From NCBI RefSeq assembly GCF_008727925.1, contig NZ_VTWT01000003.1, positions 434,001 to 498,000 of the forward strand: a stretch of 64,000 nucleotides of DNA. Reading direction: 5' to 3'. The translations under genes and the position numbers were made by a program. Below are positions 32,854-45,118 of this stretch, piece by piece (positions within the stretch are counted from its first letter, which is position 1; each line of letters starts with the position of its first letter). This DNA is from Adhaeribacter soli. Its GTDB lineage: Bacteria > Bacteroidota > Bacteroidia > Cytophagales > Hymenobacteraceae. The notes under the pieces are model-generated. The model saw only the letters and a program-made list of their open reading frames with translations. It did no database searches and had not been told where the DNA came from.

Positions 32854-32889
32854 GAAACAGGGTTTTTAAGCCCTAAACCCTACCATTTT

Positions 32890-32926
32890 AAAGCACAGTT
32901 TGCAACAGCAGGCTGTGCTTTTTCTT
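32890..32926 (+). terminator. terminator of rlmN
   Basis: Stem AAAGCACAG (32890-32898) with CTGTGCTTT (32913-32921), then T-rich. Almost the same hairpin and flanks follow the genes ending at 37201, 39364 and 41591. Confidence 0.8.
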
Positions 32927-33082: not shown

Positions 33083-35008
33083 ATGAGCAGATTTCTTTCG
33101 CTTTTCCTTATTGCATTCATGCTTTTTGCCCCTTCAGACGCCTTTTCCCAGAATAAGGAAGGGGCAAACTGGCTTTTCGGCGGTAACATTCATTTAGATT
33201 TTAACAGGGCTAAACCCCGCATCGATGCATTTTCATTTATGGCAGTAGATTCCATGCTGAAAGGGGTTGCTGCAATCAGCGATAAAAATGGGGAGTTGCT
33301 TTTTTTTACGTCTAAAGGCCATGCTGTTAGTCGGCAAAAAGTAAATGGTATTTACCAGGCCATGCCTAATGGTGCGTTTCATACCGGACCTTTTCCAAAA
33401 TCTACTTTGGCTGAAATGATCATGCAAAGCCCCGCAGATTCCAATTTATACTACCTGTTTTTTGTAGGATATCAGTTCGTAAATAATATTTCTCACCAGA
33501 ACCTCTATTATTTGCAGATAGATATGCGGTTAAATAATGGGAATGGCGATGTGGTACCTAACTCTCTGCAATTACTGAAAAAGGAAGTTGCCCATTTTAA
33601 GCTTACGGCACTTTTACATTCCAATAACCGCGATACCTGGGTTGGGTGCACGAATTATGCTGGCGATAGTATCTTGGCTTATTTGGTAACTCCCGGTGGT
33701 ATTATGCCGCCAGTTGTTTCAAAACCATCAAATCGCTTTTCACCTTTCAGCCGCATGAAGGCTTCTCCCAATAGCGAAATGTTTGCAGTAGGTAATATAC
33801 TTGGTTCGGGAATAGAGGGCATGGATATTTATGACTTTAACCGGGCCACAGGGACTGCAAGCCTCAAATATTCACTCACACCTCCTGTTGTTGGTTATCC
33901 TTTGTTTTCATTTGCTTTTTCCCCAGATAATTCCAGGCTTTATGCAGGTACTATCGGCTATGCCGGTTTTCCTAACGACGCCACTGTTTTCCAATTCGAT
34001 TTAGCAGCCGGAAATAATGCACAGGTGCAGCAATCCAGGAATGTGATCTATAATACAACCAGATCGGATGGGGTTTTTGACATGCAATTAGCGATAGACG
34101 GCAAAATATACTTAGTAATAGACAGCACCTATTTAAGCCAGATTAATTGCCCTGATTTCTATGGTGCGGCATGCCGGTTCCAGACACAAGGAATAAAATT
34201 GCCAGGTCGGGTAAATGGCGGATCGTTGCCCACCTTAAACCAAACCATCTTCCGGAATGCCGGTAAACTGCAGGCACAAGCATACCGGAATTTGATCTGT
34301 GAAGGCGATTCGGTACCGTTATCCGCTTATGGAGCAGGTGCGGAGCAGTTCCGGTGGAAGCCGGCAAACGGGTTAACCTCTCCTGCCGATACATCAGCCA
34401 ATCCGGTAGTAAATCCAACGGAAACTACTACTTACATGGTAATTGGTAGCAGCGTCTGCCGCACCGATACGGCTTACGTAAAAGTAACTGTGCTGCCCAA
34501 ACCCAAGCCTCTATCAATATCAGGTCCGCTTCATGTTTATACGTATGCGGAAAAGCAGGTTTATTCAGTAAAAGACCCAGTGCCGGGAAACAAGTTCGAC
34601 TGGCAGGTAAGCGGTGGGAGTATCGGAAAAGGACAGGGAAGCAGCCGCATAGAAGTGAACTGGGGCGCAAACGGTACCGGAACCATTACCGTAACTGAAA
34701 GTAATGCTGCTGGCTGTAAATGGGGAAGTGCAAGCCTGGAAGTGGAAATCTCCGGCGAACCTGACCTGATCATCTACAACATCATCACCCCGAACGACGA
34801 TGGCAAGAATGATGCTTTTGTAATAGAAAACCTGAAGTGGTACCCGCAAAACGAGCTCCGCCTCTTTAACCGCTGGGGCATGCAAGTTTACCAGAGCAAA
34901 AATTACCTCAACAACTGGAAGGCTGGAAATGTAAGCGCCGGAATTTACTACTACCTCTTTACTGCCAACGGGAAAGCCTGGAAAGGTTGGGTGGAAGTGG
35001 TAAAGTAA
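33083..35008 (+). CDS. T9SS type B cargo, array copy 1
   Basis: 641 residues from the ATG at 33083; a TTG five codons earlier is possible. Signal peptide MSRFLSLFLIAFMLFAPSDA. Residues about 25-400 form a propeller-like module opening with GANWLFGGNIHLDFN and AAISDKNGELLFFTSKGH, repeating AFSPDNSRLYAGT near 290. Two PKD/Ig-like modules follow (about 400-475 and 475-560), then an 81-residue gliding-associated C-terminal domain (IITPNDDGKNDAFVIENL, FNRWGMQVYQSKNYLNNW, WKGWVEVVK), the type B T9SS signal. Exported and probably attached at or released from the surface. It is the first of five tandem paralogues. Its terminator differs from those after copies 2-4. Specific ligand unknown. Confidence 0.92.
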   Translation: MSRFLSLFLIAFMLFAPSDAFSQNKEGANWLFGGNIHLDFNRAKPRIDAFSFMAVDSMLKGVAAISDKNGELLFFTSKGHAVSRQKVNGIYQAMPNGAFHTGPFPKSTLAEMIMQSPADSNLYYLFFVGYQFVNNISHQNLYYLQIDMRLNNGNGDVVPNSLQLLKKEVAHFKLTALLHSNNRDTWVGCTNYAGDSILAYLVTPGGIMPPVVSKPSNRFSPFSRMKASPNSEMFAVGNILGSGIEGMDIYDFNRATGTASLKYSLTPPVVGYPLFSFAFSPDNSRLYAGTIGYAGFPNDATVFQFDLAAGNNAQVQQSRNVIYNTTRSDGVFDMQLAIDGKIYLVIDSTYLSQINCPDFYGAACRFQTQGIKLPGRVNGGSLPTLNQTIFRNAGKLQAQAYRNLICEGDSVPLSAYGAGAEQFRWKPANGLTSPADTSANPVVNPTETTTYMVIGSSVCRTDTAYVKVTVLPKPKPLSISGPLHVYTYAEKQVYSVKDPVPGNKFDWQVSGGSIGKGQGSSRIEVNWGANGTGTITVTESNAAGCKWGSASLEVEISGEPDLIIYNIITPNDDGKNDAFVIENLKWYPQNELRLFNRWGMQVYQSKNYLNNWKAGNVSAGIYYYLFTANGKAWKGWVEVVK

Positions 35009-35061
35009 AGCTTTCTTCCTGAGAACGTATTCTTATTTTTAGCTGGAAAAAGTAGCAATTT

Positions 35062-35099
35062 AAAGCGCAATTTGCTCAAAAGCAGATTGCGCTTTTTTT
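35062..35099 (+). terminator. terminator of array copy 1
   Basis: Stem AAAGCGCAAT (35062-35071) with ATTGCGCTTT (35086-35095), then T's. The bases just before it (35013-35060) resemble the 3' flank of copy 5 (43768-43816). Confidence 0.8.
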
Positions 35100-35239
35100 G
35101 TTTTACAAGCATCTGATTTCATTTTCTGCAGGATAGCATTTGGTCAGCTCTGCTTAACAAGGAAAATCTTTTACTTCTATTCAAAATTTGTTAATATTAC
35201 GAAGGTAGTTTCAGCCTCAGAAAATCTTATCCTGGAAAT

Positions 35240-37201
35240 ATGGGTGTGCGTAAATTATTCCCGGTATTTTGTATTGTTTTTTTTGGCTATTTATCGATGC
35301 CAGGCGTTTTTGCGCAAGAAAAGCAAGGTGCTAATTGGTTTTTTGCGGGCAGGGTTCATCTGGATTTTAATGTGCCGAAACCGGTAGTAACTAATTTTTC
35401 ATTTATTAAGGTAGACAGCCTGGCCACGGGCATTGCCGGGGCAGCAGCCATTAGCGATAAGAACGGGGATCCGCTTTTTTTTACCTCCGGAGGAAAAATT
35501 GCTACCCGGGAAAAGATAAACGGAGTCTATCAACCGATGGCTAACGGTAAATTTTTTTCGGGGAAAGTTCCTGACCTTCTTTATTCCGAAATGATCGTGC
35601 AAAGCCCGGGCGATTCAAACCTGTATTATTTGTTTTTTACCAAGTTTGAAAGGGCGATCAGTACAAGCGTAGATCTCTACCAATTGCAGGTAGATATGCG
35701 GTTGAATAATGGTTACGGCGATGTAGTGCCTAATTCTCTGCAACTCGTAAGGAAAAAAGTAAGTCCGTATAACCTTACTGCTTTCCTGCACCACAATAAC
35801 CGCGATACCTGGGTTAGCGCTGCTAATTCGGTTCCGGGTGCCGGGGTAAGCGATACTATTTTCAATTATTTGGTTACTCCAACGGGTATTTTGCCACCGG
35901 TTAAAACGAAAGTAACCACGCCCTTTAGTAGCTCGCGGATGAAAGCATCGCCAAATAGTGAAATGTTTGTAGTGGTCGCTTACAAATTAATTGCAGGCCA
36001 GCGAGTTCAGCACCTGGAGCTTTATGATTTTAACCGAACCACAGGCGTACCCACCCTTCGGTTTTCATTTCCAACCCCCAGCCTCGATTACCAATTATTT
36101 TCTTTCGCGTTTTCACCAGATAATTCCAAGCTTTACGCGGGAAGCTCCGGGCATACAGGCCTGCCTAAAATTGCAACCGTTTACCAATATGACCTGGCGG
36201 CCGGAAATACTGCCCAGGTGCAACAATCGCAGAACATAGTTTATAATAGTACTAATTTTTCGGGTGTTTACGATATGCAATTAGCTATTAACGGGAAGCT
36301 TTACCTGTATACCGAACCTGCATTTTTAGCGCAGATAAACTGTCCTGATTTTTATGGCCCGGCCTGTAACATTCAGGTAAACACGGTAGATCTTAACGGA
36401 AAAACCGAAGGGTATAGTTTACCAACCTTGAACCAGACCATTTTCCGGAACGCCGGTAAGTTGCAAGCGCAGGCCACCCGGCAAACGATCTGCGAAGGCG
36501 ATACGGTGCAACTATCCGCTTATGGCGCAGGCGCAGACCACTTCAAATGGAAACTGGCCAATGGCTTAATTCCCTCATCCGATACTTTAGTTAACCCGAT
36601 CGTAAATCCAACTGAAACTACTACTTACATGGTAATTGGCAGCAGCACCTGCCGCACCGATACGGCTTACGTAAAAGTAACGGTATTGCCTAAGCCCAAG
36701 CCTCTGTCAATATCAGGTCCGCTTCAGGTTCATACGTATGCCGAAAAGCAGGTTTATTCAGTAAAAGACCCAGTGCCGGGAAACAAGTTCGACTGGCAAA
36801 TAAGCGGCGGCACAATAGAAAAGGGGCAGGGAAGCAGCAGCATTGAAGTGAATTGGGGAGCAGCCGGCGCCGGAAGCATTACCGTAACGGAAAGTAATGC
36901 CGCTGGCTGTAAATGGGGAAGTACAAGCCTGGAAGTGGAAATCTCCGGCGAACCTGATCTGATTATTTACAACATTATCACGCCAAACAACGACGGAAAG
37001 AACGATGCCTTTGTAATAGAGAACCTGAAGTGGTACCCGCAAAACGAGCTCCGCATTTTTAACCGCTGGGGCATGGAGGTTTACCAGAGCAAAAATTATC
37101 GCAACAACTGGAAGGCTGAAAAGGTAAGCTCCGGAATTTATTACTACCTCTTTATTACCCAAGGAAAAACCTGGAAAGGCTGGGTGGAAGTGGTAAAATA
37201 A
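35240..37201 (+). CDS. T9SS type B cargo, array copy 2
   Basis: 653 residues from an ATG. The signal peptide (about 1-25) ends MPGVFAQ. Same order as copy 1: propeller-like N-half (GANWFFAGRVHLDFN, SRMKASPNSEMFVVV, FSFAFSPDNSKLYAGS), two PKD/Ig-like modules and a type B sorting domain ending WKGWVEVVK. The N-half differs from copy 1 in many residues and small insertions. The C-half is almost the same as copies 1 and 5. Bases 36577-36838 are identical, by my reading, to 43138-43399 in copy 5. It is the only other copy besides 1 with a usable ATG. Confidence 0.92.
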   Translation: MGVRKLFPVFCIVFFGYLSMPGVFAQEKQGANWFFAGRVHLDFNVPKPVVTNFSFIKVDSLATGIAGAAAISDKNGDPLFFTSGGKIATREKINGVYQPMANGKFFSGKVPDLLYSEMIVQSPGDSNLYYLFFTKFERAISTSVDLYQLQVDMRLNNGYGDVVPNSLQLVRKKVSPYNLTAFLHHNNRDTWVSAANSVPGAGVSDTIFNYLVTPTGILPPVKTKVTTPFSSSRMKASPNSEMFVVVAYKLIAGQRVQHLELYDFNRTTGVPTLRFSFPTPSLDYQLFSFAFSPDNSKLYAGSSGHTGLPKIATVYQYDLAAGNTAQVQQSQNIVYNSTNFSGVYDMQLAINGKLYLYTEPAFLAQINCPDFYGPACNIQVNTVDLNGKTEGYSLPTLNQTIFRNAGKLQAQATRQTICEGDTVQLSAYGAGADHFKWKLANGLIPSSDTLVNPIVNPTETTTYMVIGSSTCRTDTAYVKVTVLPKPKPLSISGPLQVHTYAEKQVYSVKDPVPGNKFDWQISGGTIEKGQGSSSIEVNWGAAGAGSITVTESNAAGCKWGSTSLEVEISGEPDLIIYNIITPNNDGKNDAFVIENLKWYPQNELRIFNRWGMEVYQSKNYRNNWKAEKVSSGIYYYLFITQGKTWKGWVEVVK

Positions 37202-37257
37202 TGCCTGCCGAGAAGCTGCATTTATGCATCTTTTAAGCCCAAAATCCTACCATTTTT

Positions 37258-37296
37258 AAAGCACAGTTTGCAACAGCAGGCTGTGCTTTTTCTTTT
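37258..37296 (+). terminator. terminator of array copy 2
   Basis: Stem AAAGCACAG (37258-37266) with CTGTGCTTT (37281-37289), the same hairpin as after rlmN, including the loop. Confidence 0.8.
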
Positions 37297-37435
37297 TGTC
37301 AGGAGATAAACGCTTTAAAGCTGCTGTCGCCAGCACAAACATTTTCTGGTTTAAACAGAACGAGTTTGCAACTTTTATCTGGTTTTTGTTATCATTACAG
37401 TTGAATAGCCTTTCTGAAATTTAATTCTGAAGAAA

Positions 37436-39364
37436 TTGATTACGCTCAACCTGCTCCGCTTACTACTTGTTTTTAGTTGCTTTATTTTTATTGTCCAGAA
37501 TTCCTATGGCCAGTTTAAAGAAGGCGCTAACTGGCTATTTGGCACTAAAATTCATCTGGATTTTAATAGCCCGAAGACAAAGGTAGATTCCTTTTTCTTT
37601 AACAGTACAGTAGCCGTAGGTGTTGCTACTATAAGCGATAAAAATGGCAACCTCCTCTTTTTTAGTTCCAATGGCCGGGTCGCTACGCGGCAAAAAGTAA
37701 ATGGCGCCTATAAAGAAATGCCGAACGGAGATTTAGTTTCCGCAACACCAAACCAAGGCACTTGGGCAGAGATGATCGTACAAAGTCCGGCAGATTCCAA
37801 TATTTACTACCTGTTTTATACTACCGGAGATTTACAGTTGCCTATTCCTTACCCGGCATTGTTTTGCGTACAGATCGATATGCGGTTGAATAATGGATAC
37901 GGCGATGTGGTGCCTGGGTCAAAGCATTTATTAAGAAGAAACGCAGGAAATTTTAAGCTTACCGCTTTATTGCATAGTAACAATCGCGATACCTGGATTC
38001 TGGCCCCCAATTACACGAACGATAGTATTTCCGCTTTTTTATTAACTTCAGGTGGCATAATGGCAGGGGTAACCACCAAATCTGCCAAACCCCTAAGTTA
38101 TATTAGCCGGATGAAAGCATCGCCCAACAGCGAAATGCTGGTAATAGGAGGCTATAACCCCCATGGGGCAGTAGAAAGCCTAGAGGTGTTTGATTTTAAC
38201 CGTACCACCGGAGTGCCAACCCATAAATATTCACTCCCTTCTCCAGATTCCAGATACCCTTTCTTTTCGTATGCTTTTTCACCCGATAATTCCAAGCTCT
38301 ATACCGGTACCATCGGAGATGCCACTAATCCCCTGAATGCGACTTTATTTCAGTACGACCTGGCAGCCGGGAGTGCTTTACAGATAGAGCAATCCAGAAA
38401 CGTTATTTTTAACAGAGCCAATTATTCAGGAATATTTGATATCCAACTGGCTATAGACGGTAAGCTGTATCTTTTAATAGATAGTGCCTACTTAAGCCAG
38501 ATTAGCTGCCCAAACTTTTATGGCGCCGCTAGCCGGTTCAAACTTAAAGGTGTAAAGCTAACTGCAGTTTCTGGAGGCGGAACCCTGCCAGCCCTAAACC
38601 AGACTATTTTCCGGAATGCCGATAAATTACAGGCCCAGGCGTACCGGAATACGATCTGCGAAGGTGATACAGTGCAGCTATCCGCTTATGGCGCAGGCGC
38701 AGAGCAGTTCCGGTGGAAACCGGCCAATGGCTTAATTTCTCCTGCCGATACATCAGCCAACCCAGTAGTAAATCCAACCTCCACCACTACTTACAAGGTA
38801 ATTGGCAGCAGCACTTGCCGCACCGATACGGCTTACGTGAAAGTAACCGTACTGCCCAAACCCAAGCCATTGGTAATGTCGGGATCGCAGCAGGTTCATA
38901 CGTTTGCAGAAAAACAGCAGTACCTGGTGCACAATCAAACTGCCGGGAATAGTTACTATTGGGAAGTTACTGGCGGAACGATAGCATCCGGGCAAGGACA
39001 AGCCAGCATTTTAGTTAATTGGGGAGATGAAGGTGCCGGAGTTGTCAGCGTAACGGAGAGCAATGCTGCCGGCTGCAAGCGAGTGACAAAGTTGCCCGTC
39101 CAGATCTCCGGCGAACCCGACCTGATCATTTACAATATCCTCACGCCCAACAACGATGGAAAGAACGATGCCTTTGTAATAGAGAACCTGAAGTGGTACC
39201 CGCAAAATGAGCTTCGCATTTTTAACCGCTGGGGCAAGGAAGTTTACCAGAGCAAGAACTACCTCAACAACTGGAAGGCGGAAAAGGTAAGCGCCGGAAT
39301 CTATTACTACCTCTTTACTGTCAACGGGAAAGCCTGGAAAGGTTGGGTAGAAGTAGTGAAGTAA
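37436..39364 (+). CDS. T9SS type B cargo, array copy 3
   Basis: 642 residues from a TTG at 37436 (ITLNLLRLLLVFSCFIFIVQ signal peptide). An in-frame stop at 37415-37417 and the lack of any ATG before the mature protein leave TTG as the best start. Propeller-like N-half opens GANWLFGTKIHLDFN with ATISDKNGNLLFFSSNGR. Two PKD/Ig-like modules follow, the second diverged from copies 1, 2 and 5 (MSGSQQVHTFAEKQQYLVHN), then the type B sorting domain. The 100-bp leader is shared with copies 4 and 5. Surface or secreted; ligand unknown. Confidence 0.9.
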   Translation: MITLNLLRLLLVFSCFIFIVQNSYGQFKEGANWLFGTKIHLDFNSPKTKVDSFFFNSTVAVGVATISDKNGNLLFFSSNGRVATRQKVNGAYKEMPNGDLVSATPNQGTWAEMIVQSPADSNIYYLFYTTGDLQLPIPYPALFCVQIDMRLNNGYGDVVPGSKHLLRRNAGNFKLTALLHSNNRDTWILAPNYTNDSISAFLLTSGGIMAGVTTKSAKPLSYISRMKASPNSEMLVIGGYNPHGAVESLEVFDFNRTTGVPTHKYSLPSPDSRYPFFSYAFSPDNSKLYTGTIGDATNPLNATLFQYDLAAGSALQIEQSRNVIFNRANYSGIFDIQLAIDGKLYLLIDSAYLSQISCPNFYGAASRFKLKGVKLTAVSGGGTLPALNQTIFRNADKLQAQAYRNTICEGDTVQLSAYGAGAEQFRWKPANGLISPADTSANPVVNPTSTTTYKVIGSSTCRTDTAYVKVTVLPKPKPLVMSGSQQVHTFAEKQQYLVHNQTAGNSYYWEVTGGTIASGQGQASILVNWGDEGAGVVSVTESNAAGCKRVTKLPVQISGEPDLIIYNILTPNNDGKNDAFVIENLKWYPQNELRIFNRWGKEVYQSKNYLNNWKAEKVSAGIYYYLFTVNGKAWKGWVEVVK

Positions 39365-39419
39365 TACCGACCAGAGAGCAGCGTTAATGCATCTTTTAAG
39401 CCCCAAACCCTACCACTAT

Positions 39420-39456
39420 AAAGCACAATTTGCAACAACAGGTTGTGCTTTTTTTT
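39420..39456 (+). terminator. terminator of array copy 3
   Basis: Stem AAAGCACAA (39420-39428) with TTGTGCTTT (39443-39451). Compared with the copy 2 hairpin one pair has changed on both sides (G-C to A-T), keeping the stem. Confidence 0.75.
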
Positions 39457-39596
39457 GCCAGGATTAATGCTTTGTAGCAGCTATCGGAAGAGCAAACATT
39501 CTTTCTTTTTTTTAACAGAATCCGTTTGACACTTTTATCTGATTTTTGTTATCATTACAGTTGAATACCTTTTCTGGAATTTAAACCTGAAGAAAA

Positions 39597-41591
39597 TTGA
39601 TTTCACCCCGACTGCTCCGGATTCTGCTTGGTTGCACCTGCTTTATTTTAATTGCTCAAAACTCTTTTGCTCAGTTTAAAGAAGGCTCAAATTGGATGTT
39701 CGGCACTAAATTTCACCTGGATTTTAATTACCCGAAGCCTACCGTAAATACCTTTTCTTATCTCGATACAAATGCAATTGGTGTGGCTTCGATCAGCGAT
39801 AAAACCGGGAACCTGCTTTTCTTTAGCTCGGGCGGGCATGTGGCTACCCGGCAAAAAGTAAACGGAACCTACCAGGAAATGCCCAATGGTGATCTAACTG
39901 CCAGTTTTTTTTACCAATCAGGTACAACGGCTGAAATGATCGTGCAAAGCCCGGCTGATTCCAATGTTTACTATCTTTTCTATACTGTGCTTGTAACTGA
40001 TTCAACGAATTATGCCTTAGATGGATGCAACCTTTATAGTGTTCAGATTAATATGCGGCTGAATAACGGCTACGGCGATGTAGTGCCTAATTCGCGGCAG
40101 TTAGTAAGAAAGAACGTAAATGGCGGGAGACTTACAGCCTTATTGCACAGCAATAACCGCGATACCTGGGTACTGTGCCAGGGTGGTTCTTTTCCCAAAA
40201 ATGATAGCCTTTCAGCTCATTTAGTAACTCCTAACGGTATTATGCCGGCTGTAAAAAGCAAACCGGCAAAGCCCTTAGGGATATTTAGCCGGATGAAAGC
40301 ATCTCCAAACAGCGAAATGTTTGTGGTACTTGGTGAAGAAACTCAGCAAGGTACCCTCATTGATCCAGCCTTAGAAGTGTTTGATTTCAATCGTAGTACC
40401 GGGGTGCCTAGCCACAAGTATTCCCTGCCACCAACTGATTTCTGGTACCCGATGGCCAGTTTTGCTTTTTCGCCCGATAATTCAAAGCTTTATGTTGGTA
40501 CAAGCTCATTTGTACAAATATCCCCTAATACCACTTTATACCAGTTCGACCTAGCTGCCGGCAATGCCGCCCAGGTGCAGCAGTCCAGGAATGTTATTTA
40601 CCATACTACCGATTATACCGGAGTACTGGATATGCAACTGGCAATTGATGGTAAGGTGTATTTATTAATCGATGGGTATAATAAAAGCAATATTGCCGGG
40701 TATAAGAATCAGTATTTAAGTAAGATCAACTGCCTCAATTCTTATGGCCCTGCCTGCCGGTTTCAATTTCAGGGCATTAACCTGAAAGCAGTGAATGGCG
40801 GCCCGGCTTTGCCTGCCCTAAACCAAACCATTTTCCGGAATGCCGGTAAATTACAGGCACAAGCTTACCGCAACGTGATCTGCGAAGGCGATTCGGTACA
40901 GCTGTCTGCCTACGGCGCAGGTGCCGAGCAGTTCAAATGGAAACCGGCTAACGGTCTAACTTCACCTGCCGATACGCTGGCCAGCCCGGTAGTAAATCCA
41001 ACTGCCACCACTACTTACATGGTAATCGGCAGCAGCGTTTGCCGCTCCGATACAGCTTACGTGAAAGTAACGGTGCTGCCGAAGCTCCCGGGCGTTTCTA
41101 TTTCCGGTCCGGTTCAGGTTCACTCGCTTTCCGAAAGGCAGGAATATTATGTGTTGAACCCGGCAGCGGGCAGTGCATTTAACTGGCAGGTAAACGGCGG
41201 CGAAATAGCAGAAGGCCAGGGAACAAACCGTATTCGGGTAAACTGGGGCGTTGCGGGCGTTGGTAGCGTGAGCGTGGCAGAGATCCCGGCAACAGGCTGC
41301 AGCGGCCAAAGAACCCGTTTAACTGTAGCGCTTTTGGATGGACCGGCCCCTGTAATCTACAACATCATCACGCCAAACAACGACGGTAAGAACGATGCCT
41401 TTGTGATCGTGAACCTGGAGTGGTACCCGCAAAACGAGCTCCGCATCTATAACCGCTGGGGCATGGAAGTTTACCATAGCAAGAATTACTTCAACAACTG
41501 GAGAGGGGAGAAGGTAAGTTCAGGAATTTACTACTACCTCTTTACGGCCAACGGAAAAACCTGGAAAGGTTGGGTGGAAGTAGTGAAGTAA
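39597..41591 (+). CDS. T9SS type B cargo, array copy 4
   Basis: 664 residues, the longest copy, from a TTG at 39597; the preceding in-frame codons include TGA at 39588. Signal peptide ISPRLLRILLGCTCFILIAQ. The N-half matches the family (GSNWMFGTKFHLDFN) with insertions near 130-145 and 355-370 (NKSNIAGYKNQYLSK). The second PKD/Ig-like module is the most divergent in the array (VSISGPVQVHSLSERQEYY, then EIPATGCSGQRTRL) and the junction to the sorting domain reads DGPAPVIYNIITPNND instead of GEPDLIIYN. The sorting domain itself is conserved. Confidence 0.9.
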   Translation: MISPRLLRILLGCTCFILIAQNSFAQFKEGSNWMFGTKFHLDFNYPKPTVNTFSYLDTNAIGVASISDKTGNLLFFSSGGHVATRQKVNGTYQEMPNGDLTASFFYQSGTTAEMIVQSPADSNVYYLFYTVLVTDSTNYALDGCNLYSVQINMRLNNGYGDVVPNSRQLVRKNVNGGRLTALLHSNNRDTWVLCQGGSFPKNDSLSAHLVTPNGIMPAVKSKPAKPLGIFSRMKASPNSEMFVVLGEETQQGTLIDPALEVFDFNRSTGVPSHKYSLPPTDFWYPMASFAFSPDNSKLYVGTSSFVQISPNTTLYQFDLAAGNAAQVQQSRNVIYHTTDYTGVLDMQLAIDGKVYLLIDGYNKSNIAGYKNQYLSKINCLNSYGPACRFQFQGINLKAVNGGPALPALNQTIFRNAGKLQAQAYRNVICEGDSVQLSAYGAGAEQFKWKPANGLTSPADTLASPVVNPTATTTYMVIGSSVCRSDTAYVKVTVLPKLPGVSISGPVQVHSLSERQEYYVLNPAAGSAFNWQVNGGEIAEGQGTNRIRVNWGVAGVGSVSVAEIPATGCSGQRTRLTVALLDGPAPVIYNIITPNNDGKNDAFVIVNLEWYPQNELRIYNRWGMEVYHSKNYFNNWRGEKVSSGIYYYLFTANGKTWKGWVEVVK

Positions 41592-41645
41592 TACCTGCCA
41601 GGAAGCGGCATTTCTGCACCTTTTAAGCCCAAAATCCTACCAATA

Positions 41646-41684
41646 TAAAACACAATTTGCAACAGCAGGCTGTGCCTTTTTTTT
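41646..41684 (+). terminator. degenerate terminator of array copy 4
   Basis: Corresponds to the copy 2 and 3 hairpins but with unpaired changes (ACACAA against CTGTGCC), leaving a weak stem before a T-run. Confidence 0.4.
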
Positions 41685-41821
41685 GCCAGGATTAATGCTT
41701 TGTAGCAGCTAGCGGCAGAACGAACATTCTTTCGGTTTAACAGAGTCAGTTTGCAACTTTTATCTGATTTTTGTTATCATTACAGTTAAATAGCCTTTCT
41801 GAAATTAAATCCTGAAGAGAA

Positions 41822-43762
41822 TTGATTACGCTCAACCTGCCCCGGATCCTGCTCGGTTTTATCTGCTTTATTTTTGCTGGTTATATTTCCTTTGCGCAGC
41901 AGAAAGAAGGAGCCAATTGGATAATGGGGAATTCACCCTACCAGTTGAGGCTTGATTTTAACGGAAAGAATCCGGCCCTTTCTTCTGTTACATTTCTGAA
42001 TAACCAGTTCCATGGTTTTGGGGTTTCAACCATAAGCGACAGGAACGGCCAATTGCTTTTTTTTAGTTACCAGGGTAACGTTGGCAGCCGGCAAATAGTA
42101 AATGGCGCTTACCTGCAGATGCCGCACGGCGATCTTTTAGCAGATTTGCCTACCAGAGCTTCTTTTGCTGATATGATTGTAAAAAGCCCTGCTGACTCGA
42201 ACATTTATTACCTTTTTTTTATAGATGGAATAAAGAATAGCTGGCCATCTGTCAGTCCCAATCTGTATCAGGTGCAGATAGATATGCGCCTGAATAATGG
42301 TTTTGGCGATGTAGTGCCAAATTCCAGGCAATTACTAAAACGGAACGTAAGCGCAATGAAGCTAACCGCTTTAATGCATAGCAATAACCGCGATACCTGG
42401 GTACTAGCTTTAACCAATAAATGTGATACTGCCATTGCTTATCAGGTAAATTCTGCAGGCATTCAGGCACCGGTGTTAACCAGAATTACAACGCCGCTCG
42501 ACACTCAGAGTAAGCTGAAGGCATCTTTAAACAGCGAAATGGTTGCCGTAAATGGACTGCAGGGAGTAAATCCAACCGTAGTGCTTTTCGATTTTAATCG
42601 AACCACCGGTGTGCCTACGTATCGATATTCCCTGGCTTCGGCAAGTGGCTTGTATCCGTTATTTTCCTTTGCCTTTTCGCCCGATAATTCAAAATTATAT
42701 GCCGGTACCGTAGGTCATAACGGCTATCCCTACAATGGAACCATATTTCAGTTCGATCTCGCATTAGGTAATGCTGCGCAGGTGCAGCAATCCCGCAATA
42801 TTGTTTTTCAAAATGATTCGGCAGCAATTGGAGATATCCAAATAGGAATAGATGGAAAGCTTTATTTTACGGGAATTGGAAAGTATTTAAGCGAGATCAG
42901 CTGTCCGAATTTTTATGGTACTGCCTCTAAGGTTAAGTATAAGGCAATACCTATAAATAGCTATGCAGGTGTTGTCTCGCTACCTACTCTAAACCAAACC
43001 ATTTTCCGGAATGCCGATAAATTGCAGGCACAGGCTTACCGCAACGTAATCTGCGAGGGTGATTCGGTGCAGCTGTCCGCCTATGGAGCGGGAGCGGAAC
43101 AGTTCAAATGGAAACCAGCCAATGGCTTAATTCCTTTATCCGATACTTTAGTTAACCCGATCGTAAATCCAACTGAAACTACTACTTACATGGTAATTGG
43201 CAGCAGCACCTGCCGCACCGATACGGCTTACGTAAAAGTAACGGTATTGCCTAAGCCCAAGCCTCTGTCAATATCAGGTCCGCTTCAGGTTCATACGTAT
43301 GCCGAAAAGCAGGTTTATTCAGTAAAAGACCCAGTGCCGGGAAACAAGTTCGACTGGCAAATAAGCGGCGGCACAATAGAAAAGGGGCAGGGAAGCAGCC
43401 GCATTGAAGTGAATTGGGGAGCAGCCGGCACCGGAAGCATTACCGTAACGGAAAGTAATGCCGCTGGCTGTAAATGGGGAAGTGCAAGCCTGGAAGTGGA
43501 AATCTCCGGCGAGCCTGATCTAATTATCTACAACATTATCACGCCAAACAACGACGGAAAGAACGATGCTTTTGTAATTGAGAACCTGAAGTGGTACCCG
43601 CAGCATGAGCTCCGCATTTTTAACCGCTGGGGCGTGGAAGTTTACCAAACTAAGAATTATCTCAACAACTGGAAGGCGGAAAATATAAGCTCCGGAATTT
43701 ATTACTACTTCTTTACTGCTCAAGGAAAAGCCTGGAAAGGTTGGGTGGAAGTAGTGAAGTAA
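41822..43762 (+). CDS. T9SS type B cargo, array copy 5
   Basis: 646 residues from a TTG at 41822 (ITLNLPRILLGFICFIFAGY signal peptide). The N-half is the most different (GANWIMGNSPYQLRLDFNGK; the DIQIGIDGKLYFTGIG region lacks the usual IDSxYLSQ). The C-half carries the same PKD/Ig-like modules and type B sorting domain as copy 2, with an identical DNA stretch of about 262 bp, a sign of sequence exchange between copies 2 and 5. It is the last gene of the array, with a strong hairpin after it. Confidence 0.9.
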   Translation: MITLNLPRILLGFICFIFAGYISFAQQKEGANWIMGNSPYQLRLDFNGKNPALSSVTFLNNQFHGFGVSTISDRNGQLLFFSYQGNVGSRQIVNGAYLQMPHGDLLADLPTRASFADMIVKSPADSNIYYLFFIDGIKNSWPSVSPNLYQVQIDMRLNNGFGDVVPNSRQLLKRNVSAMKLTALMHSNNRDTWVLALTNKCDTAIAYQVNSAGIQAPVLTRITTPLDTQSKLKASLNSEMVAVNGLQGVNPTVVLFDFNRTTGVPTYRYSLASASGLYPLFSFAFSPDNSKLYAGTVGHNGYPYNGTIFQFDLALGNAAQVQQSRNIVFQNDSAAIGDIQIGIDGKLYFTGIGKYLSEISCPNFYGTASKVKYKAIPINSYAGVVSLPTLNQTIFRNADKLQAQAYRNVICEGDSVQLSAYGAGAEQFKWKPANGLIPLSDTLVNPIVNPTETTTYMVIGSSTCRTDTAYVKVTVLPKPKPLSISGPLQVHTYAEKQVYSVKDPVPGNKFDWQISGGTIEKGQGSSRIEVNWGAAGTGSITVTESNAAGCKWGSASLEVEISGEPDLIIYNIITPNNDGKNDAFVIENLKWYPQHELRIFNRWGVEVYQTKNYLNNWKAENISSGIYYYFFTAQGKAWKGWVEVVK

Positions 43763-43830
43763 ATATTTCTTCCTGAAAACATACTCTTACTTTTTAGCTG
43801 AAAAGAGTAGCATTTTCAGGCTAAAAACCA

Positions 43831-43867: not shown

Positions 43868-45118
43868 TTATTCCAGTTTGCCAATACCCTTACGGTTGCC
43901 AAGTTTAAACGTGAAGCTGTAATAAATGGGAATGAAATACGACGAAACGATCTGGCCGCTGTCGTGGCGGTTGCCGGAGTAAGCGGCGTAGAAGCCGCCC
44001 AGATCCAGGTTGGTGCGGGGCCAGATAAAGCGCAAACCGTATAAGCCAAAGCCATAGGTTCGGTCGCCGGGAACGGAAAGGATATAATTTTCGCTCATAA
44101 ATGCCAGCCGGTTCGACATGCGTTTTACCCCGCCCAGCATTACCAGCGGGGTGCTGGAAACATTGCCGTTAAAAAAGGCGAAACCGATACCGGCCGTAAT
44201 ATGGTCGCTTTTATTGCCGTAGGTTCCGGCGCTATAGAGCAAACCGAATTGCTCTTCCAGGAAATTGACAAAAAGCACGCCGCCGGCCACGTTGGTATTT
44301 TCAGTGGTCGGAAAACTGATCTTAGGCGTTAGGGCAAAAATATTATTTTCCAGCGGCAGGAAAGGCATCAGCAAAAAAGTGCTGCCTATAGAGATGTTGT
44401 CCGTTATGCCGTAGTTAATGGAATTTAAATAACCGTAAATGGTTTGAACGTAGCCTTCGCCGCGTGGAATGCCCCGGCCGGTCGGGCCGAAGTACAGGCG
44501 GCTGTCGTGCGGGTTCGGTACCCAGTAGTAACCGCTTTTAAGCCGGTTTTCCACTTCTTTCATGTAGCGGATATTCCCGAAAGTAGCCGTAATCGTTCCA
44601 AAATATTCCGTATTGAAAACGTATTCCGAAGCCCGTTTTTCGGCAACGGTGCCGAAGAACTTCATGCCGTTGCTCAGAATTACGTAATACACCTTTCCCG
44701 AAAGCGCAGTTGCGGCAGGTCTGGTGTCGGATTGGGCGGGAACGGGAACTGCCGGAGCAGGAGCAGGCGTTTTTTGCGGCGGCACAGTACTGTTTTTAGC
44801 ACGCGCTTCTATCAGCTGGCCGGTAAGTTCAAATTCGCTTTGGGTATAAGGCCGGTAATCTATTTTGCCGTTCCGTTTTACTATTTCCAAGATAATGCCG
44901 TCCGGCGTTTGCAGAAACCTTCCGATCTGGAACGTAGCCGAATCGGCGAAAGGGAAAAGATTATACCTGATCTTTTCTTCCAGGTCTATTACTTCGCCTA
45001 CGACCGGGCTTACGGGCAAAACTTTCTGATCCTGCAGGGTTTGCCCCAGTACCGGCCAGGCCGCCAACAGCAAGGTGAAAAACAGTAGCTTTTTAAGCAG
45101 AAAAACCGGGAAACGCAT
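43868..45118 (-). CDS. outer-membrane protein with C-terminal barrel, unknown function
   Basis: 416 residues. Signal peptide about 1-25 (LLFFTLLLAAWPVLGQ). Residues 30-110 form a small domain (DGIILEIVKRNGKIDYRPYT), followed by a Pro/Ala linker (112-135) and a second small beta domain near 138-190 (YYVILSNGMKFFGTVAEKRA). From about 205 onwards alternating hydrophobic and aromatic strands (GYLNSINYGITDNISIGSTF, VAGGVLFVNFLEEQFGLLYS) suggest an 8-12-strand outer-membrane barrel. It is convergent with the array and transcribed alone. Not a TonB receptor. Function unknown. Confidence 0.75.
   Translation of the reverse strand: MRFPVFLLKKLLFFTLLLAAWPVLGQTLQDQKVLPVSPVVGEVIDLEEKIRYNLFPFADSATFQIGRFLQTPDGIILEIVKRNGKIDYRPYTQSEFELTGQLIEARAKNSTVPPQKTPAPAPAVPVPAQSDTRPAATALSGKVYYVILSNGMKFFGTVAEKRASEYVFNTEYFGTITATFGNIRYMKEVENRLKSGYYWVPNPHDSRLYFGPTGRGIPRGEGYVQTIYGYLNSINYGITDNISIGSTFLLMPFLPLENNIFALTPKISFPTTENTNVAGGVLFVNFLEEQFGLLYSAGTYGNKSDHITAGIGFAFFNGNVSSTPLVMLGGVKRMSNRLAFMSENYILSVPGDRTYGFGLYGLRFIWPRTNLDLGGFYAAYSGNRHDSGQIVSSYFIPIYYSFTFKLGNRKGIGKLE

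Follow-up and report, generated by a model that had tools for sequence, protein, structure and literature searches.

Five paralogous genes of Adhaeribacter soli encode predicted type B cargo proteins of the T9SS whose front halves differ strongly and whose back halves are much alike, and the locus raises the question of whether selection has driven the fronts apart or recombination has kept the backs together. A sequence-only reading of the window, the 64,000-nucleotide stretch of contig NZ_VTWT01000003.1 analyzed here, had favored the former and likened the locus to a surface-antigen array. We find that the array and its asymmetry are real, but codon-level comparison points to a different cause: the back is homogenized and the front is not hypervariable.

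Layout of the array and fold of its proteins

The open reading frame list places five intact, same-strand paralogues of 641-664 residues head to tail at 33083-43762 with no other gene between them, as originally described. Copy 1 (33083..35008, +; 641 aa) encodes a T9SS type B cargo protein with a signal peptide, propeller, Ig-like segment, PKD_6 module and CHU_C domain, and the same architecture is found in copy 2 (35240..37201, +; 653 aa), copy 3 (37436..39364, +; 642 aa), copy 4 (39597..41591, +; 664 aa) and copy 5 (41822..43762, +; 646 aa), the last three with a TTG start. All five have a signal-peptide-like start, a front of ~370 residues, the Ig-like segment, the PKD_6 module and the CHU_C type IX sorting domain. 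CHU_C (Pfam PF13585) matches all five above cut-off with E-values of 1e-21 to 1e-23, PKD_6 (PF19408) matches all five, and the type B C-terminal domain (CTD) model TIGR04131 (NCBIfam) does so as well, with three of the five above cut-off and two just below. By inspection, the N terminus of each protein is a hydrophobic segment that runs up to a small-x-small/Q site, and the sequences predict export and a surface location.

AlphaFold2, given an alignment of 38 relatives, confidently models the front of copy 3 (37505..38605, +) as a propeller (pLDDT 90.9, pTM 0.91) that has seven blades by strand order, and the best PDB matches of this model in Foldseek are WD40 propellers (E 2.7e-9, TM 0.4-0.5). 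A propeller profile run against PDB sequences returned nothing significant, so the fold is settled by the model and Foldseek, which upholds the propeller-like N-half, as the domain searches do the rest of the proposed architecture. The equivalent propellers of copies 1, 2, 4 and 5 lie at 33152-34249, 35315-36442, 39666-40832 and 41891-43003 (all +); the full length of copy 5 gave a model too uncertain (pLDDT 68) to be used in the analysis. These propellers may bind ligands. The domain occurs in 59 of 60 genomes drawn from the family, mostly in 1-4 copies, and two species of this genus carry 11 and 10; at a strict cut of E 1e-50, no match is found in other genomes among 194 from the order, a set that does not include the sister species. 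A stand-alone propeller of ~385-415 residues is common in the family and in several loci adjoins a gene which we take to be meaB-like. Tandem propeller cargo pairs also lie beside methylmalonyl-CoA mutase-like genes (L092, L101) and are kept in both species.

Terminator-like hairpins follow copies 1, 2, 3 and 5, with a related but imperfect sequence in the gap after copy 4, and the promoter-like region upstream of copy 3 (37340..37435, +) is homologous to those of copies 4 and 5, from which the upstream regions of copies 1 and 2 differ. Given these hairpins and promoter-like regions, the genes look separately transcribed and no copy looks silent. The signal peptide and promoter ends of copies 3, 4 and 5 are closer to each other than their propellers are. 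A class B flank with a terminator lies directly 3' of rlmN (32862..32926, +), and similar flanks follow copies 2, 3 and 4; its 39-bp terminator segment is identical to a segment at 37258, and rlmN of the sister species (G001) has a different terminator downstream. The class A 3' flank after copy 1 (35009..35060, +) resembles that after copy 5 (43763-43815). Tandem duplication of a unit of terminator B, promoter and gene would account for the class B flanks ahead of copy 1 and behind copies 2-4 and for the class A flank behind copy 5; for the class A flank after copy 1, a conversion from copy 5 extending into the flank would suffice. A lost "copy 0" ahead of copy 1, an idea that came from the class B flank upstream of copy 1, is not needed. 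A REP-like palindrome, CTGAAAAGAGTAGCATTTTCAG, follows copy 5 at 43798-43819, and similar ones are present in sister-species DNA; as a repeat class, this palindrome of the 3' flanks is too rare in the loci counted to call. Between the array and yihY lies a 416-aa gene (43868-45118) with no Pfam match and no match in the sister species.

Divergence along the genes

The N-halves are 46-62% identical in amino acid sequence among the copies, the first Ig-like segments 80-90% and the CTDs 75-91%. The PKD modules are 88-96% identical among copies 1, 2 and 5 and only 45-60% identical in pairs with copy 3 or 4, where they diverge as much as the N-halves; the uniform back described earlier thus holds for copies 1, 2 and 5 and fails for the PKD modules of copies 3 and 4. 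Copy 4 is the most divergent in its PKD module and CTD, and copy 5 joins the most divergent front to a copy 2-like back.

At the codon level, the divergence is uneven along the length of the genes, as had been anticipated. In all ten pairs the front is saturated at synonymous sites (pS 0.66-0.75), with pN of 0.24-0.34. Front dN/dS is 0.12-0.22 in the pairs where it is computable; dS is saturated in the rest, which leaves little power to detect positive selection acting on individual loops. Further back, pS falls to 0.36-0.61 in the first Ig-like segment, with very low pN, and to 0.34-0.51 in the CTD in all copy pairs, while in the PKD module it is 0.00 between copies 2 and 5 (83 codons), 0.26 for pairs 1/2 and 1/5, and 0.66-0.83 with copy 3 or 4. 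In pairs 2-5, 1-2 and 1-5, third-position identity shows a change point at residues ~428-455 (permutation p 0.003, the floor of 300 shuffles), from which a tract with a pS of 0.13-0.36 runs to the stop codon. This change point sits inside the first Ig-like segment rather than at the edge of the propeller, so the boundary is no clean domain junction. The longest identical run is an exact 262-bp repeat in copies 2 and 5 (36577..36838 = 43138..43399, +; permutation p = 0.0005, the floor of 2000 shuffles), which we read as a conversion tract. Tracts of low synonymous divergence with edges inside the genes, as in gene-converted families, are thus present, and the lowered synonymous divergence of the back is best read as homogenization by recombination, i.e., gene conversion. 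Constraint at the protein level accounts for part of the similarity of the CTDs and first Ig-like segments, and constraint on codons could bring pS down slightly.

Related cargo genes, orthologues and age

A screen for low CTD pS with low pN, which covered 31 cargo genes here and 27 in the sister species, returns the array, the pair D/E, the tandem pair S1/S2 from an unrelated front family, the pair h/j and, weakly, a/b. In D/E (this genome) and h/j (sister species) the break falls at the end of the propeller, at residues 388/293 and 387/398, with pS dropping from 0.79 to 0.37 and from 0.80 to 0.18, respectively; the two members of each pair lie on separate contigs and resemble each other no further than the stop codon, beyond which the flanks are unrelated. 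S1/S2 breaks at residue ~322, with a pS of 0.53 in front and 0.01 behind. This tandem cargo pair (L114:152-4956) has a back half identical over ~1 kb, which may be true conversion or duplication or, in a 16-contig assembly, conceivably an assembly error. In four other family genomes (G014, G042, G053 and G028) we find no pair with old fronts and homogenized backs; where low CTD pS came with high pN, as in some pairs of G014 and of other genomes, we treated it as noise. The sister species also has what is apparently a decayed cargo gene (G001:C19:314233-314463, within L142), a brief CHU_C remnant that contains an in-frame stop.

Trees of the two ends of these proteins disagree. In the propeller tree D groups with h and B1 with d, and in the CTD tree D groups with E, h with j, and d with a/b, such that fronts pair across species and CTDs within species, although support is weak for several branches of the CTD tree, which is short. 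The GC content of fourfold sites steps up at the boundary of propeller and back in D, h, j, c, e and B2 (L093, L102, L104, L097, L096, L091), e.g., from 0.27 to 0.62 in D and from 0.32 to 0.64 in h, against a window median of 0.67; the step is absent in C1, C2, f and g and only +0.04 to +0.10 in the array. GC-biased conversion is not supported as its source, because the backs only equal the window median and the unconverted C1, C2, f and g are GC-rich throughout.

The propeller tree also gives 1:1 partners with the sister species, namely B1/d, C1/g, C2/f and D/h, and the B1/d and C/fg pairs have neighbor genes in common as well. The fronts of these orthologues are 53-61% identical with pN of 0.28-0.34, compared to 48-62% and 0.24-0.34 for the array copies; the array fronts therefore evolve no faster than their single-copy relatives, and the claim of a diversified exposed front is not supported. 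With loops assigned, and propeller faces taken, from strand order rather than coordinates, the array copies differ at 0.74 of positions in the BC and DA loops, 0.20 in the AB and CD loops and 0.46 in the strands, and indels fall largely in the BC and DA loops, which by convention would form one face of the propeller. The variable residues thus concentrate on one apparent face, a pattern to be expected of copies with different ligands, but the orthologue pairs B1/d and D/h are biased in the same way, and C1/g and C2/f only a little; over the orthologues, the means are 0.61 for the BC and DA loops, 0.36 for the AB and CD loops and 0.40 for the strands. The loop pattern is compatible with ligand specificities divided among the copies and is not specific to the array.

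In the sister species rlmN is followed directly by yihY, the surrounding genes are syntenic, and the array and the 416-aa gene are absent from the site; the two markers lie 0.2-6 kb apart in eight of ten other family genomes. The array was therefore either gained in this lineage or lost from the sister species. The array is sister to B2/(a,b) in the propeller tree, which makes its lineage at least as old as the species split.

Probable origin of the asymmetry and predicted export of the array proteins

Surface-antigen arrays likewise comprise several paralogues with variable and constant parts, and combine silent cassettes with one expression site. Here, none of the five copies looks incomplete, each has a start of its own, and a search of the array for switching features finds no silent cassettes and no invertible or useful inverted repeats, only 8-bp T tracts. 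Selection for ligand or antigenic variation that drives the fronts apart, with the backs held constant for export, is accordingly an unlikely account of the locus. The concentration of differences and indels in the BC and DA loops speaks for it, but the loop bias recurs in the orthologue pairs B1/d and D/h, front dN/dS is low and front divergence is that of 1:1 orthologues; the backs, moreover, have diverged little at synonymous sites as well as in protein, and constancy fails in the PKD modules of copies 3 and 4.

We give still less credence to recent whole-gene copying followed by recombination with other, AT-richer sequences that supplied new fronts. Such replacement would fit the low fourfold GC of several cargo fronts (0.36 in B2, besides D and h) relative to backs of 0.60-0.64, but the D/E and h/j similarities that end at the stop codon between unrelated flanks are unlike a recent whole-gene copy, and the step in the array is small; since the tree makes the fronts of D and h orthologues and AT-richness is common to both, their composition step must be old. 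Least probable of all is a history of ordinary tandem duplication in which conversion played no part and the sorting domain was under stronger protein constraint. Type B CTDs do contain conserved motifs needed for export (PMC12618676), dN is very low in the first Ig-like segment, and the CTDs of copies 3 and 4 may have no other history; constraint cannot, however, give a pS of zero over the PKD modules of copies 2 and 5 or ~340 codons without a difference in another cargo pair, and a PKD pS that is low within copies 1, 2 and 5 and saturated against copies 3 and 4 contradicts this account for the former three.

We therefore consider it probable that the array is a lineage-specific tandem family of T9SS type B cargo proteins, with old propellers under purifying selection and backs kept similar by conversion. 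The signal peptide would take each protein across the inner membrane, and the CHU_C domain would direct export through the T9SS, leaving the seven-bladed propeller displayed. Duplication would have built the array at about the time of the split from the sister species or before it, after which the propellers would have diverged under purifying selection into what look like divided ligand specificities, while conversion among copies would hold stretches of the Ig/PKD/CTD half close to one another. The conversion may be maintained for the match that it preserves between rear half and shuttle, or may simply follow from recombination between sequences that are alike. A more tentative extension is modular display by T9SS type B cargo throughout the genus, in which rears made of Ig/PKD and sorting domain are repeatedly overwritten even between dispersed paralogues, many fronts are matched to few shuttles, and the fronts escape conversion.

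According to published work, PorP/SprF-like shuttles are the partners of type B CTDs, and a single shuttle can serve several CTDs that are alike (PMC12618676). This genome encodes T9SS components that include one GldL and five PorP/SprF-like genes above cut-off, as compared to ~30 type B domains; three of the five adjoin large cargo genes, and none is beside the array. CTDs that are 75-91% identical make a single shuttle for the whole array likely, and all five proteins probably have in common one PorP/SprF-like shuttle encoded elsewhere. In these respects the array resembles Flavobacterium johnsoniae SprB and the orphans Fjoh_1123, Fjoh_1720 and Fjoh_4934 (PMC12618676, PMC9143113): its proteins likewise have a signal peptide and CHU_C/TIGR04131, and its genes lack an adjacent porP/sprF, like the three orphan cargo proteins with one common shuttle. 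Unlike the orphans, the array consists of five tandem paralogues with a propeller front, and its CTDs are far more alike than those of the three orphans, for which >44% is reported.

Back-half conversion is not described in the papers we found, and on conversion or concerted evolution in T9SS cargo only work on Porphyromonas gingivalis proved relevant, an absence that is weak evidence. The gingipains and HagA of that species are likewise T9SS surface proteins with modules common to different genes and rearranged by recombination, and their diversity is reported as allelic, at the strain level (PMC5266723). In the array, by contrast, it is the rear half, with its type B CTD, that the genes have in common, and their fronts are old and show no acceleration. 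A tandem array with variable fronts and constant backs can thus arise when the back is converted, with no need for diversification of the front, which suggests a testable picture in which Bacteroidota could multiply their surface proteins without multiplying shuttles, by way of a rear maintained by recombination and a front that specializes.
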